33,195 nucleotides of DNA from Nitrospirae bacterium GWB2_47_37 (lineage in GTDB: Bacteria; Nitrospirota; Thermodesulfovibrionia; Thermodesulfovibrionales; Dissulfurispiraceae), in contig MHDU01000050.1 in NCBI GenBank assembly GCA_001803635.1, forward strand, positions 1 to 33,195. The letters run 5' to 3'. The stretch's first letter is position 1, and every line of letters begins with the position of its first letter. Below are positions 27,442 through 33,195 of the stretch, piece by piece. Below the pieces are notes generated by a model. It saw only the letters and a program-made list of their open reading frames with translations, did not search any database and was not told the DNA's origin. The translations under genes and the position numbers were made by a program.

Positions 27442-27457
27442 CGGCATTAATATTGCT
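27442..27457 (+). promoter_or_regulatory. Candidate sigma-54 promoter of the redox operon
   Basis: CGGCAT-TAATA-TTGCT matches the sigma-54 consensus TGGCAC-N5-TTGCW. The invariant GG and GC pairs are present with exact spacing. Transcription would start near 27468, with AAGGGGGG before the ATG at 27495. A TATATT at 27460-27465 could be an alternative -10. Confidence 0.5.
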
Positions 27458-27494: not shown

Positions 27495-28262
27495 ATGGAG
27501 AAGCAACGCATACTGGTCGTGGACGACGACCCTGTTATAGGCCTTAGCTGCAAGAGGATACTCGGAGCCGAGGGGTTTACGGTATTTACGGTCGAAGACG
27601 GAGAAGGCGCGATAGAGAAGGTATCGAATGAAGAGTTCGACCTTGTTATAACGGACATAAGGCTTCCGGATGTCTATGGTCTTAAGGTGGTGCAGGAATC
27701 CAAGACAATACAGCCCAAGGCGGACGTCGTTGTCATTACCGGTTATCCTTCCCTCGACGACGCGAAGGAGTCGATAAGGCTCGGCGCTTTAGAGTATCTT
27801 GAAAAGCCCTTTACTCCGGATTTCATGATGAACGTCGCCAAGAGGGTGTTCGATAAGAGGGGCTGGATATTAAAGAAGGCGTATATAGATCAGTTCAGGG
27901 ACTACGTGGTGCCTTCCTCTGAAATGGATAATCTTACGGTTTATTACAAAGACGGCACATGGGCCCGGCCTGTTCAGGAAGGGATGTGGGAGATAGGAAT
28001 AGACGTGAGGAACTTCCTGGCCGGAGGCCAGCTTCTATATGTAGATATAATGAAGAGCCTTAAAGAGGTCGTAAGCGGCGAGACCTTCGCCCAGCTTATA
28101 AGCGGCGGAAGGAATATCATCACATACGATATAAATGCCCCTATGACCGGGATCGTGAAAAGTGTAAACTCGCATGCCAATGACGCCATATGCTCTTTGC
28201 TGAAGGACCATTTGAGCGAAGGCTGGTTTCTATGGCTTGTCAGGATAGAGACAATCAAGTGA
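27495..28262 (+). CDS. Response regulator receiver fused to a GcvH-like domain
   Basis: In this 255-residue protein residues 5-120 form a complete receiver domain: acidic pocket Asp10-Asp12, phospho-acceptor Asp54 in VITDIRLPD, Thr82 and Lys104. Residues about 146-252 resemble glycine cleavage H protein (WEIGIDVRN, then NAPMTGIVKSVN and SEGWFLWLVRI). The lipoyl lysine of GcvH falls in a segment reading GGRNIITYD with no Lys, so the domain is probably not lipoylated and may act as a docking or sensing module. It is the first gene of the operon, preceded by AAGGGGGG and a possible sigma-54 promoter. No histidine kinase is present in the window. Confidence 0.85.
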   Translation: MEKQRILVVDDDPVIGLSCKRILGAEGFTVFTVEDGEGAIEKVSNEEFDLVITDIRLPDVYGLKVVQESKTIQPKADVVVITGYPSLDDAKESIRLGALEYLEKPFTPDFMMNVAKRVFDKRGWILKKAYIDQFRDYVVPSSEMDNLTVYYKDGTWARPVQEGMWEIGIDVRNFLAGGQLLYVDIMKSLKEVVSGETFAQLISGGRNIITYDINAPMTGIVKSVNSHANDAICSLLKDHLSEGWFLWLVRIETIK

Positions 28263-28278
28263 TTAAGGAGGATAGAGG

Positions 28279-29139
28279 ATGAAGGGAAATATCCTTGTGG
28301 TGGATGACGAACAGATAGTTTTGAAGAGCTGTGAAAGGATTTTGTCTCCGGAGGGATACGGCGTAGATACCGCGACTTCCGCGAAGGAGGCCCTGTCGCT
28401 GCTCGACAAAAATTTTTACGATCTCGTCATTACGGACATCAAGATGCCGGAGATGGACGGCATAGAGTTTATGAAACAGGCGAGGCAGAAGAATCCGGAT
28501 ATAAACATAATAGTCATAACGGGCTATCCTTCTCAGGAAAGCATAAAAGAGGCCTTGCGGCTGAGGATAATAGATTACCTTCCCAAACCGTTCTCGCCTA
28601 CGCATCTTTTAGAAGTTACCGCTAACGCTATCGAGTTGAAGAAAAGGGGAATAATTCCGGAGCCTCAGGTGGAGAATTATACGGAAGAGGTAGCCGTGAA
28701 ACTGGATGCCGTCATAGACAGGTATAGGCATAAGCCAGGCAGCCTTATACCGGTGCTTCAGGAGGCTCAGGAACTCGTGGGTTATCTGCCTCCCGTCGTT
28801 CAGAGGCATATTGCCGGGGGCCTTAAGATACCCGTCAGCGAGGTTCACGGCGTGGTATCGTTCTATTCCTTTTTCACAATGAAGCCTAAGGGCAAGCACA
28901 ACATAAGGGTGTGCCTCGGAACGGCCTGTTATGTCAAAGGCGCGGAAGAGATAGTAAAGAAATTCAGCGACGGCCTTAAGCTCGAAGTCGGGGGCATTAC
29001 TTCGGACAAGAAATTTTCCCTCGAGACCGTCAGGTGCCTCGGGGCGTGCGGCCTCGCGCCGGTCGTGGTGATAGACAAGGACACGCACGGCTCCATAAAT
29101 CCGGTCAAGACATTAGACCTTTTGAAGGAATTCGAATAG
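28279..29139 (+). CDS. Response regulator receiver fused to NuoE/HndA-type [2Fe-2S] subunit
   Basis: In this 286-residue protein residues 4-120 are a full receiver domain (Asp9-Asp10, phospho-acceptor Asp53 in VITDIKMPE, Thr81, Lys103). Residues about 130-286 are a complete NuoE/HoxE/HndA subunit. It has the helical start (LIPVLQEAQELVGYLPP), the VSFYSFFTMKPKGKHNIRVC signature, and thioredoxin-like [2Fe-2S] ligands Cys212, Cys217, Cys253 and Cys257. In NADH dehydrogenases and NAD(P)-linked hydrogenases this subunit partners NuoF/HndC. The fusion would let phosphorylation act on the electron-transfer complex itself. The gap to the preceding gene is 16 nt, and AGGAGG-type sites precede this gene and the next. 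Confidence 0.93.
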   Translation: MKGNILVVDDEQIVLKSCERILSPEGYGVDTATSAKEALSLLDKNFYDLVITDIKMPEMDGIEFMKQARQKNPDINIIVITGYPSQESIKEALRLRIIDYLPKPFSPTHLLEVTANAIELKKRGIIPEPQVENYTEEVAVKLDAVIDRYRHKPGSLIPVLQEAQELVGYLPPVVQRHIAGGLKIPVSEVHGVVSFYSFFTMKPKGKHNIRVCLGTACYVKGAEEIVKKFSDGLKLEVGGITSDKKFSLETVRCLGACGLAPVVVIDKDTHGSINPVKTLDLLKEFE

Positions 29140-29148
29140 GAGGAATAT

Positions 29149-29532
29149 ATGGCCAGACTTACGGTGGATGACTTAAAAAAGATCAAGGAAGAATATAAGT
29201 CTACGCTCACACTGAGAGAGGGCGGTTCGAGGGCGAAGATAACGGTTCACATGGGCACATGCGGCATAGCCGCCGGAGCGAGAAAGGTAATGGAGGCCGT
29301 GCTCGACGAGATAAATAAAAATAACGTTAAGGATGTTATCGTGACGAATTCCGGATGCGCCGGGCTCTGCAGCAAGGAGCCTATGGCTACCGTGGAAATA
29401 ATAAACGAAGCGCCCGTTAAATACGTTCAGCTCAACGAAGACAAGATACGGAAGATATTTAAGGAGCATGTTATGGAAGGCAGCGCGGTTCAAGATTACG
29501 CCCTTGTTGTGGGCAGCGAAACGGCGTACTAA
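29149..29532 (+). CDS. HndB-like thioredoxin-fold [2Fe-2S] ferredoxin
   Basis: This 127-residue protein resembles HndB of NADP-reducing hydrogenases: VHMGTCGIAAGARKVMEAVLDE followed by TNSGCAGLCSKEPMATV. Only three cysteines are present (Cys38, Cys70, Cys74). The position of the usual first ligand is taken by His34, or the cluster is held differently. The gene lies 9 nt after the receiver-NuoE fusion and 9 nt before the NuoF-like gene, the same order as hndA-hndB-hndC. It is probably an electron-transfer or structural subunit of the complex. Confidence 0.88.
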   Translation: MARLTVDDLKKIKEEYKSTLTLREGGSRAKITVHMGTCGIAAGARKVMEAVLDEINKNNVKDVIVTNSGCAGLCSKEPMATVEIINEAPVKYVQLNEDKIRKIFKEHVMEGSAVQDYALVVGSETAY

Positions 29533-29541
29533 GGAGGAGAG

Positions 29542-31425
29542 ATGGAAAAGTATCGCACAAGCGTTATGCTCTGCGGCGGCACCGGATGCATATCCGGAGG
29601 CAGCTTAAAGGTGAAGAACGCGCTTACGGAAGAACTTATTAAGAGAGAACTTCAGGATGAAATAAATGTAGTTGTTACCGGATGCAACGGGTTCTGCGCG
29701 AAAGGTCCCGTAATGACGGTCTACCCCGAAGACATATTTTACGAAAAGGTTACGGTAGATGACGTTCCGGTTATTATCGAAGAGCACTTCATTAAGGGAA
29801 GGCCTGTCGAACGCCTTCTGTATAAAGAACCGATAAAGAAGCAGACGATTCCGCTCATGCGCGATATCCCGTTTTTCAACCTTCAGGTACTGAGGGCTTT
29901 GAGGAACAAGGGGCTTATCGACGCTGAAAAGATCGACGAATACATTGCAAGGGACGGTTATCAGGCCGCTGCCAAGGCATTGACCGAAATGACCCCGGAG
30001 CAGGTTATAAATGAGCTTAAACGCTCCGGCCTCAGGGGAAGGGGAGGCGCGGGTTTCCCTACCGGAATGAAGTGGGAATTATGCTCGCGTGTTAAGGGCG
30101 ACAGTAAATACATACTGTGCAACGGAGACGAAGGAGACCCCGGCGCGTTCATGGACAGGAGCATTATGGAGGCCGATCCTCACGTGGTCCTCGAAGGAAT
30201 GATCATAGGCGCGCGGGCTATCGGCGCGGATAAAGGTTACATATACGTCAGGGCGGAATATCCCCTTGCGGTTCATAGGTTGCAGCTTGCGATAAATCAG
30301 GCAAAGGAATACGGGCTTTTGGGAGAAAACATTCTCGGCACAGGCTTTAATCTCGATATTGAGATATATCTGGGCGCGGGCGCGTTTGTCTGCGGAGAAG
30401 AGACCGCGCTTATGCGCTCAATCGAGGGCAAGAGGGGCATGCCGAGGCCTAGGCCTCCTTTCCCGGCGCAGAAAGGACTCTGGGATAAGCCCTCGGTGCT
30501 TAACAATGTCGAAACATACGCCAACATACCCCAGATAATACTGAACGGAGCCGACTGGTACAAGAGCCTCGGAACGGAAAAGTCCACCGGCACGAAGGTA
30601 TTTGCCCTTACAGGTGCCATAAATAATGTCGGACTTATAGAAGTTCCGATGGGAATCCCGTTAAGAAAGATTATTTTTGATATCGGAGGCGGCATATCCA
30701 AGGGCAGGAAATTCAAGGCAGTGCAGCTTGGAGGCCCTTCCGGCGGCTGTATCCCGGAACATCTCCTCGACACTCCGGTAACGTATGAAGATATCGTCCA
30801 GACAGGAGCGATTGTAGGCTCCGGCGGCATGGTCGTTATGAACGACCTCAACTGCATGGTGAGCGTTGCAAAGTTCTTCCTTGAATTTACTACCGATGAG
30901 TCGTGCGGCAAATGTCCGCCTTGCAGGATAGGAACTACCGTAATGCTCGATATCCTGACCAACATAACCGAAGGCAGGGGCAAGGAAGGATATATAGAAT
31001 TACTGCAGGATATTTCTCAGGATATAATCGCCACGTCCCTTTGCGGATTAGGACAGACCGCGCCTAATCCCGTTCTTACTACAATAAAATATTTCAGGGA
31101 TGAATACGAGTCTCACATAAATGAAAAGTGGTGCAAGACCGGCGTCTGTAAGGAGCTATGCACATTTTACGTAGATGAAGAAAAATGCAAGGCGTGCGGC
31201 GCGTGCAAGAGGGTATGCCCGCAGAACGCCATTTCAGGGGAAAAGAAGGTTCCCCATCGCATAGAACAATCCAAATGCATACAGTGCCGCTCGTGTTACG
31301 AGGCATGCAAATTCGACTCCATAAAAATAGGGCCGAGGAGCATGAGGGAAAAGCTTATGGAGACTACCGATCAGGAAGCGCTCAAAGAGATTTACACCGC
31401 GGCGATAGCAGCGAAGGAGGAGTAA
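29542..31425 (+). CDS. NuoF/HndC-type NAD(P)H-binding flavoprotein subunit
   Basis: In this 627-residue protein the N-terminal thioredoxin-like [2Fe-2S] domain has Cys11, Cys16, Cys48 and Cys52. It is followed by the FMN/NAD-binding core (LRGRGGAGFPTGMKW, CNGDEGDPGAFMDR, GAGAYICGEE-like GAGAFVCGEETAL). Then come an SLBB domain, the [4Fe-4S] site (ESCGKCPPCRIGT plus SLCGLGQTAPNP) and a C-terminal 2[4Fe-4S] ferredoxin (CKACGACKRVCP, CIQCRSCYEACK). This architecture is that of HndC/HydB in bifurcating hydrogenases and formate dehydrogenases, longer than plain NuoF. It oxidises or reduces NAD(P)H and passes electrons to its partners. It is spaced 3 nt from the next gene. Confidence 0.95.
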   Translation: MEKYRTSVMLCGGTGCISGGSLKVKNALTEELIKRELQDEINVVVTGCNGFCAKGPVMTVYPEDIFYEKVTVDDVPVIIEEHFIKGRPVERLLYKEPIKKQTIPLMRDIPFFNLQVLRALRNKGLIDAEKIDEYIARDGYQAAAKALTEMTPEQVINELKRSGLRGRGGAGFPTGMKWELCSRVKGDSKYILCNGDEGDPGAFMDRSIMEADPHVVLEGMIIGARAIGADKGYIYVRAEYPLAVHRLQLAINQAKEYGLLGENILGTGFNLDIEIYLGAGAFVCGEETALMRSIEGKRGMPRPRPPFPAQKGLWDKPSVLNNVETYANIPQIILNGADWYKSLGTEKSTGTKVFALTGAINNVGLIEVPMGIPLRKIIFDIGGGISKGRKFKAVQLGGPSGGCIPEHLLDTPVTYEDIVQTGAIVGSGGMVVMNDLNCMVSVAKFFLEFTTDESCGKCPPCRIGTTVMLDILTNITEGRGKEGYIELLQDISQDIIATSLCGLGQTAPNPVLTTIKYFRDEYESHINEKWCKTGVCKELCTFYVDEEKCKACGACKRVCPQNAISGEKKVPHRIEQSKCIQCRSCYEACKFDSIKIGPRSMREKLMETTDQEALKEIYTAAIAAKEE

Positions 31426-31428
31426 GAG

Positions 31429-33195
31429 ATGCCGATAGAGCTTACTATAAACGGAAAAAACATAAAGGCGGAGCAGGGAATGACCATTCTTCAGGCCGCC
31501 CTGAAAAACGATATTTACATACCTAACATGTGCTATGACAGGAGGCTTAAGCCCTACGGCGGATGCAGGCTCTGCGTTGTCGAACTCGAAGGGCAGAAAA
31601 GGCTTTTTGCAGCGTGTTCGACCCCGGCTGAAGACGGAATGATCGTTCATACGGAAACCCCGAAACTCGCAAAGGCGAGAAAGACGGTGCTCGAACTCCT
31701 GCTCGTGCATCACCCGCTCGACTGTCCTATATGCGACAAGGCGGGCGAATGCAGCCTTCAGGACCTTGCATTCAAATACGGGCCTTCCCAGAGCAGGTTC
31801 GTCGCGGAAAGAAAGCACGACCCGGAAAGGGTTGACGCGCCCATAGTAGAGAGGAATCCTAACAGGTGCATATTGTGCGGCAAGTGCGTAAGGGTATGCG
31901 CCGAGCATCAGGGAGTAGGGGCGATAAACCTTATAGGAAGGGGCTTTAAGACAAAGGTGAGCCCTGCCTTTGAAGAAACCCTGAACTGCGAATTCTGCGG
32001 CCAGTGCATAGACGCATGTCCTGTGGGCGCCCTCGGGGCCAAGCCTTACAGGTTCAGGTCGAGGGTGTGGTATATGGATGAATACGAGACCATATGCCCT
32101 TACTGCGGCTGCGGATGCACGACAAACTTGAGTCTCAGAGAAGGAAGGATAATAAGGGCGAGGGGTAAAGACGGCATAGGCATAAACGAAGGAAACCTCT
32201 GCGGCAAGGGCAGGTTCGGGTTCGATTACATATATTCCGAAAACAGGATCACCGCGCCCATGATTAGAAAGGACGGAAAACTTACTCCCGTATCATGGGA
32301 AGAGGCCCTGCAATATGTCGCAAAGAGGCTCGAAGATATAAAGGAAAAATACGGCCCTTCGGCCATCGGAGCGATAGGCTCCCAGAGATGCACAATAGAA
32401 GACAACTATATGCTCCAGAAGTTCATGAGGGATGTCGTAGGCACCGATAATATAGATTCCGGAGCGCGGTTCGGTTACGCCAAGGCGCAGAAGGCGCTCG
32501 AAAAGGCATACGGCGTAGACTTTATGCCGATAAAGTGGAAGGCGCCTCTCAAAGCTGACTTTATGCTTGTGGTGGAATCGGACATAACATCCACGCTTCC
32601 GGTGTGGGGGCTTAACTTTATCAAAGCGAAAAACGACGGAGCGACTCTCGTGGTAGCGGACGTGAAAGAGACAAAGCTCGCGCGGAACAGCACGCAGTGG
32701 CTCAGGATAAAGCCCGGTTCCGGCACCGTCTTAATGAACGGCATGATGAAGGTAATAATAGACGAAGGGTTATATGATAAGGATAAGGCTTCTGTTGTGC
32801 CGAATTTCGACGCGCTTACCGCGGGCCTGAAAGAATTCACGCCGCAAGCGGTATCGAGTATTACAGGCATAAGCGAAGACAGGATTATAAGCCTTGCAAG
32901 GTCGTATGCGTCTGCGGGGAAACGCCTTATAGCCCTTACTTCCAATATATCGGAAAATACCAAGAGCATAAATACGATATTAGCAGCCGCGAACCTCGCT
33001 ATTCTTATGGGCGACGATCCCGATACGGTTCAGGTGCCGGCCGAATTTTCTAATACTGCCGGCATGTGGATGTCGGGAGTAAGGCCGCTTTCGGGAGGCA
33101 AAGACGTTTATAACATGCTCTATGAGCCGGGATCGGTGAAGGCGCTTTATATAATGGGCGAAAATCCCATCGTAACTTTTCAGGACGCGGCAAGG
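31429..33195 (+). CDS. NuoG/formate dehydrogenase alpha-like molybdopterin-fold subunit (partial)
   Basis: The 3' end is cut by the window; 589 codons are visible. It starts with a [2Fe-2S] ferredoxin (Cys35, Cys46, Cys49, Cys63) and the His-Cys [4Fe-4S] site (His95, Cys99, Cys102, Cys108). Next are two [4Fe-4S] motifs (Cys147-157 and Cys187-197), then the Mo-bisPGD family N-terminus with a [4Fe-4S] motif (CPYCGCGC at 223-230, Cys258). Where formate dehydrogenases have CAR-x-(Sec/Cys)-His, this protein reads GARFGY. The catalytic position is Gly349 and the His is Tyr350, so formate oxidation is unlikely. It is best read as a NuoG-like electron-wiring subunit of the module upstream. AAGGAGGAG overlaps the end of the NuoF-like gene. 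Confidence 0.92.
   Translation, partial: MPIELTINGKNIKAEQGMTILQAALKNDIYIPNMCYDRRLKPYGGCRLCVVELEGQKRLFAACSTPAEDGMIVHTETPKLAKARKTVLELLLVHHPLDCPICDKAGECSLQDLAFKYGPSQSRFVAERKHDPERVDAPIVERNPNRCILCGKCVRVCAEHQGVGAINLIGRGFKTKVSPAFEETLNCEFCGQCIDACPVGALGAKPYRFRSRVWYMDEYETICPYCGCGCTTNLSLREGRIIRARGKDGIGINEGNLCGKGRFGFDYIYSENRITAPMIRKDGKLTPVSWEEALQYVAKRLEDIKEKYGPSAIGAIGSQRCTIEDNYMLQKFMRDVVGTDNIDSGARFGYAKAQKALEKAYGVDFMPIKWKAPLKADFMLVVESDITSTLPVWGLNFIKAKNDGATLVVADVKETKLARNSTQWLRIKPGSGTVLMNGMMKVIIDEGLYDKDKASVVPNFDALTAGLKEFTPQAVSSITGISEDRIISLARSYASAGKRLIALTSNISENTKSINTILAAANLAILMGDDPDTVQVPAEFSNTAGMWMSGVRPLSGGKDVYNMLYEPGSVKALYIMGENPIVTFQDAAR

Follow-up and report, generated by a model that had tools for sequence, protein, structure and literature searches.

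A receiver domain fused to the NuoE/HydC subunit of a predicted electron-bifurcating complex in Nitrospirota

Introduction

In anaerobes, electron-bifurcating enzymes balance NADH against reduced ferredoxin. The closest described systems to the locus reported here are HydABC of A. woodii and T. kivui and the NiFe-Bfu enzyme of A. mobile. Proteins of the Bfu family contain an unusual cluster, B2, whose ligands are Cys, Cys or Thr, His, Cys and Cys (C438, C476 or Thr, H525, C531 and C536 in NiFe-Bfu), and the B2 histidine is found in nearly all BfuB proteins and is missing from non-bifurcating homologues (Schut et al. 2022, PMC9304861). In NiFe-Bfu, the C-terminal domain of BfuC moves between positions that link FMN to either pathway, gating electron flow (PMC9304861). 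Neither "response regulator" nor "receiver" occurs as a term in this survey, the main one of the Bfu family, and a receiver-NuoE or receiver-BfuC fusion was described nowhere in the openly licensed literature searched.

Response regulators with enzymatic outputs, such as PorX and CheB, join an N-terminal receiver and an enzyme-type output in one chain. The protein described here shares this arrangement, but its output is an iron-sulphur subunit of a predicted electron-bifurcating complex. Two further systems resemble the locus: NuoEFG of complex I, through homology of the NuoE, F and G subunits, and the NAD-dependent or bifurcating formate dehydrogenases (FdsABG, Fdh-Bfu).

Results

The window, that is, the whole stretch of DNA analysed (33,195 nucleotides), is a contig of a 2.47-Mb draft genome whose named relatives are Nitrospirae/Nitrospirota bins. 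An earlier reading of the letters alone (the sequence-only reading) had proposed an in-frame fusion of a receiver domain and a NuoE-type subunit at 28279-29139. We recovered it at exactly these coordinates as a single open reading frame on the + strand (286 aa, ATG start) with two Pfam domains, and a Shine-Dalgarno-like "taaggagga" lies 5' of the ATG at about 28263-28271. The gene divides as follows:

28279..28632, + strand: receiver domain of the fusion, residues 1-118 (Pfam, conservation, AlphaFold model)
28633..28698, + strand: interdomain linker, residues 119-140 (highest alignment column entropy)
28699..29139, + strand: NuoE/HydC (BfuC) domain, followed by the stop (Pfam PF01257, solved relatives)

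Residues 5-113 matched Response_reg, a CheY-like receiver (E = 1.3e-30), and residues 143-285 matched 2Fe-2S_thioredx (PF01257, E = 2.1e-48), the thioredoxin-like [2Fe-2S] subunit NuoE/HydC. The claim of an intact receiver held: the phospho-acceptor D53 (codon 28435-28437) and K103 (codon 28585-28587) were present as read, together with the acid pair D9/D10 and T81. The four [2Fe-2S] cysteines were likewise in place at C212, C217, C253 and C257 (codons 28912-28914, 28927-28929, 29035-29037 and 29047-29049). The best solved relatives of the BfuC domain were 7t2r_C and 8a6t_C, both HydC subunits of bifurcating hydrogenases. An AlphaFold2 model of the whole fusion (pLDDT 76.5, pTM 0.51) gave a well-modelled receiver (pLDDT mostly 84-95 over residues 1-80) and low-confidence cluster loops, and carries no information on docking to BfuB. 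Foldseek searches with this model returned HydC subunits as top matches; the NuoE half superposed poorly (rmsd about 10 Å), and the receiver lay 1.2 Å from the CheY-like structure 3crn.

A search with the fusion protein found the full-length fusion in most of 60 relatives. Using a 22-row alignment as the query, we detected it in 75 of 296 sampled Nitrospirota genomes from 17 family codes (counted from the table), where full length means a query start of 4 or lower and an end of 285 or higher. All 75 genomes belong to the window's Nitrospirota class, presumably Thermodesulfovibrionia, and the single-contig genomes G007, G035 and G044 are among them. This recurrence shows that the fusion is neither a chance product nor an assembly join. 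That a frameshift or assembly error joined two genes, an explanation favoured only by its prior, is thus of negligible probability, since the same full-length frame recurs in all 75 genomes.

Among 55 distinct fusion copies, the four NuoE cysteines were kept in every copy, and D9, D10, D53, T81 and K103 formed a complete set in 51 of the 54 whole receivers. The loss of the receiver in all close homologues, which the sequence-only reading had raised against itself alongside a joining error, was therefore not found. Receiver segment 81-90 showed low entropy (0.55 bits), the TGYPSQESIK segment of the receiver was nearly as conserved as the NuoE core, and the linker (121-140) was the most variable stretch of the fusion, with column entropy of about 2.3-2.5 bits. 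A variable linker would suit a receiver that serves as a structural, docking or targeting module, its phosphorylation no longer relevant to the enzyme, as would three copies that have lost phospho-residues and kept the NuoE cysteines (G197 and the sister genomes G015 and G024 of genus g14), and a fusion from another phylum, described below, in which Glu replaces the phospho-Asp. However, a mere scaffold would need neither the five residues kept in nearly all receivers nor the conserved segment 81-90, and we consider this explanation unlikely.

The genes flanking the fusion are closely packed and all on the same (+) strand. Those 3' of it supply the rest of the complex, as had been claimed:

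29149..29532, + strand: thioredoxin-like [2Fe-2S] ferredoxin-like protein (Fd) of HydABC-type operons, 127 aa (weak Pfam PF01257 match)
29542..31425, + strand: NuoF/HydB (BfuB) subunit, 627 aa (Pfam, solved HydB relatives)
31429..33195, + strand: NuoG-like BfuA subunit, cut by the contig end (Pfam, motif alignment with the genome's Sec-FdhA)

The Fd gene is common to most related operons, including those of Bacillota. Pfam searches of BfuB identified an N-terminal 2Fe-2S_thioredx domain, Complex1_51K, NADH_4Fe-4S and two C-terminal Fer4 domains (2x[4Fe-4S]), so that the B1, B3, B4 and B5 cluster domains surround the FMN domain. BfuB matched A. woodii HydB (7q4v_B, E = 6.5e-254) and NiFe-Bfu (7t2r_B, E = 1.8e-250), whereas its matches to complex I NuoF were far weaker, at about 1e-114 and higher E-values. 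All B2 ligand residues aligned in the window's BfuB, at positions counted by eye: C, T (TNITEG), H (YESHI), C (KWC) and C (GVC). The sequence-only reading had placed the fusion in an NAD(P)H-linked diaphorase; the redox complex stood, but a plain diaphorase did not, since BfuB carries the bifurcating B2 ligands. These sequence features point to a predicted NAD(H)/ferredoxin electron-bifurcating Bfu (HydABC-type) enzyme rather than a simple diaphorase, derived from a HydABC-like operon. HydABC/Bfu and this locus share BfuC and BfuB homologues whose cluster ligands agree. The Nitrospirota systems differ in their fused BfuC receiver, in the added receiver, kinase and NtrC genes, and in a NuoG-like BfuA with a molybdopterin-fold domain, the BfuA of the Bacillota operons being shorter.

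Pfam identified the NuoG-type A1-A5 cluster domains in BfuA and the molybdopterin-fold domain, the latter complete in relatives. The best solved match of BfuA is the FdsA structure 6tg9_A (R. capsulatus), and fdhD lies nearby in several genomes. Nevertheless, at the site of DHCARL-(TGA/Sec)-HSP in the genome's own formate dehydrogenase, BfuA has DS(A/G)ARFGYAK (DSGARFGY in the window), and Gly replaces the Sec/Cys metal ligand in almost all BfuA copies aligned. Lacking this ligand, BfuA is not a formate dehydrogenase, and we rejected that assignment; the true Sec-type enzyme of the window's genome is encoded in another operon. Complex I shares the ...FGYA... segment at this site, but additional iron-sulphur domains at both termini set the window's BfuB apart, and the tree places the two NuoE domains in separate clades. 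A complex I N-module was also rejected, as contig C38 of the genome carries a separate nuo operon that includes NuoE, F and G genes; we recognised no membrane-arm genes adjoining the fusion in the loci read.

The window's genome has three other NuoE genes, none with a receiver, which lie in an Fdh-Bfu operon, in a Bfu-like set by CODH/ACS genes and in the complex I operon. The FdhA gene of the Fdh-Bfu operon (L150:13072-15777, contig C77) contains an in-frame TGA, probably read as selenocysteine, and is followed by a formate-tetrahydrofolate ligase-like gene.

Two features lie 5' of the fusion:

27442..27457, + strand: putative sigma-54 (-24/-12) promoter of the operon, CGGCATTAATATTGCT (conserved element TGGCAT-N5-TTGC)
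27495..28262, + strand: receiver + GcvH-like protein, 255 aa, companion of the fusion (Pfam)

The companion matched Response_reg (E = 4e-25) and GCV_H (E = 7.5e-6), and its receiver acid residues, D54 and K104 were intact in 41 of 41 relatives. We saw no conserved lysine at the lipoyl position by eye in the alignment of relatives, and a lipoylated GcvH was rejected on this ground. Its AlphaFold model was poor (pLDDT 49.8, from 5 sequences) and was left out of the analysis. The element TGGCAT-N5-TTGC occurred about 30-60 bases 5' of the receiver-GcvH start in roughly 27 of 41 related loci, which are non-independent, in a looser core-anchored scan compared with mononucleotide shuffles of each stretch. 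Its distance to the start was nearly constant across loci. The window copy has one mismatch, within TGG; a search of the window for the exact sigma-54 pattern, with a different spacing and zero mismatches, returned nothing.

Mapping of gene neighbourhoods, which the sequence-only reading had proposed together with the search for receiver-NuoE architectures, revealed a two-component cassette in the relatives' clusters. In the complete genome G007, the order is histidine kinase, DRTGG, RsbW-like ATPase, DRTGG, PHP, HATPase, CheY-like and NtrC-type, followed past a short interruption by receiver-GcvH, receiver-NuoE, Fd, BfuB and BfuA; the L156 locus has the same cassette uninterrupted. The PHP, HATPase, CheY and NtrC genes of the window's genome are on contig C27, which begins just 5' of the PHP gene. 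The cassette kinase was not placed in this genome, where the top-scoring candidate (C60, 37% identity) is possibly unrelated. On contig C27, RnfB/RnfA-like genes (L206:3519-5335) adjoin the CheY/NtrC genes.

A histidine kinase with an H-box stands beside the cassette in several genomes. In many cassette kinases, the sensor part contains CxxCH paired with CxxxxCH, which hints at c-type haem; the G007 kinase is a shorter membrane protein without these motifs. The DRTGG, RsbW-like, PHP, HATPase and small [2Fe-2S] Fd genes likewise accompany NuoE, BfuB and BfuA in the Bacillota loci examined, a likeness to the HydABC operons that extends to their accessory genes. The same arrangement occurs in another Nitrospirota class (f23), with a stand-alone NuoE. 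At L139:2332-3183, the RsbW-like ATPase of the cassette itself carries a fused receiver; this receiver is closest to that of the neighbouring NuoE fusion, which suggests that the NuoE-fusion receiver was copied within the cassette.

In G015 and G024, two of the genomes without the phospho-site, a genome-wide search found no receiver-GcvH, and the stretches read contained no CheY or NtrC receiver. The G024 kinase is shortened and its H-box is changed (AHELEGPL). These observations fit a loss of phospho-signalling along with its site, in a single lineage. Three other genomes (G016, G025 and G164) lack receiver-GcvH and have an intact NuoE receiver, which speaks against a strict link between receiver-GcvH and the phospho-site.

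On the NuoE tree, the fused domains clustered, and next to them stood the unfused NuoE of f23, from operons of the same type. This quick tree (147 columns, many forks unresolved) gave two label changes, one of them from the long-branched stand-alone L181, which may be misplaced. The trees favour one origin of the fusion within Nitrospirota. Searches at strict thresholds (1e-60 or 1e-70, which weak or diverged fusions would escape) found no fusion in the phyla represented by the Desulfobacterales MAG G308 (297 genomes searched), the Ignavibacteria genome G307 (247) and the Bacillota genome G319 (299). One of 132 genomes from the phylum of G309 (Zixibacteria) encoded a receiver-NuoE protein (G1168, L217:8095-8976). 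It has a diverged NuoE on a long branch and a receiver with VTAN and TEL motifs, in which Glu, by eye, occupies the phospho-Asp position; DRTGG, Fd, BfuB and Hdr-like genes share its operon. This protein is probably an independent second fusion, which the tree does not prove. In an Ignavibacteria cluster (L098:8992-10972), a CxxCH-containing histidine kinase is encoded with two receiver proteins, one of 261 aa and the other of 384 aa with a GcvH-like C-terminus.

Discussion

We propose that the fusion is the BfuC (HydC/NuoE) subunit of a Bfu-type NAD(H)/ferredoxin-coupled bifurcating complex, with a phospho-receiver tethered at its N-terminus. The cassette histidine kinase would phosphorylate a set of receivers: CheY-like, NtrC-type, receiver-GcvH and receiver-BfuC. 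The NtrC-type protein would drive the sigma-54 promoter 5' of the operon, and the phosphorylated receiver on BfuC may shift the mobility or docking of that subunit, so that bifurcation or assembly of the complex would be turned up or down. Because the C-terminal domain of BfuC gates electron flow in the solved relative, BfuC is a sensible site for a switch; because the linker is variable, a rigid allosteric path is not evident. As the receiver lies within a larger two-component cassette with a sigma-54-type promoter, transcriptional and enzyme-level control may coexist. Direct phosphorylation control of the complex, as first suggested by the sequence-only reading, is in our view the best reading and a plausible one, in which phosphotransfer, the acting kinase, the effect on activity and bifurcation itself are predicted steps. 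With modest confidence, we regard the whole explanation, a kinase-phosphorylated receiver tuning the complex together with NtrC/sigma-54 transcription, as probable.

The signal could also run in the reverse direction. The complex would then act as a sensor or phosphate sink: phosphorylation of the BfuC receiver would follow the redox state or NADH occupancy of BfuC, and through its competition with the CheY and NtrC receivers for a single kinase, electron-carrier status would be reported to the sigma-54 regulon. One kinase indeed appears flanked by several receivers, the L139 cluster carries a NuoE-fusion-like receiver on its RsbW-like ATPase as well, and addition of NAD(H)/FMN moves BfuC in the solved relative (PMC9304861). 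Yet all 75 genomes have the receiver covalently joined to a catalytic subunit, the layout of effector-type response regulators, and we judge reverse flow rather improbable.

If control by the BfuC receiver is real, a phosphorylation switch within a bifurcating subunit would bring bifurcation under the direct control of signal transduction. The system lends itself to testing, with its conserved phospho-site, a candidate kinase, natural site-loss variants and well-studied structural relatives. Receiver insertions in HdrA-type proteins and the receiver-NuoE protein of another phylum would, if the proposal holds, make receiver control a recurring theme among bifurcating enzymes. The broader proposition, that Nitrospirota exert class-wide two-component control at two levels (NtrC/sigma-54 transcription and direct phosphorylation of the BfuC receiver) and that receiver control recurs, is put forward tentatively.

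The HdrA-like proteins are encoded at L100:1122-4655 and L107:9365-12859 (1177 and 1164 aa), each with a receiver inserted after ferredoxin-type clusters. Their genes adjoin HdrB/C-like and kinase genes, and the two inserted receivers group together on the tree. They are a second kind of receiver-equipped redox subunit, of the Hdr type.
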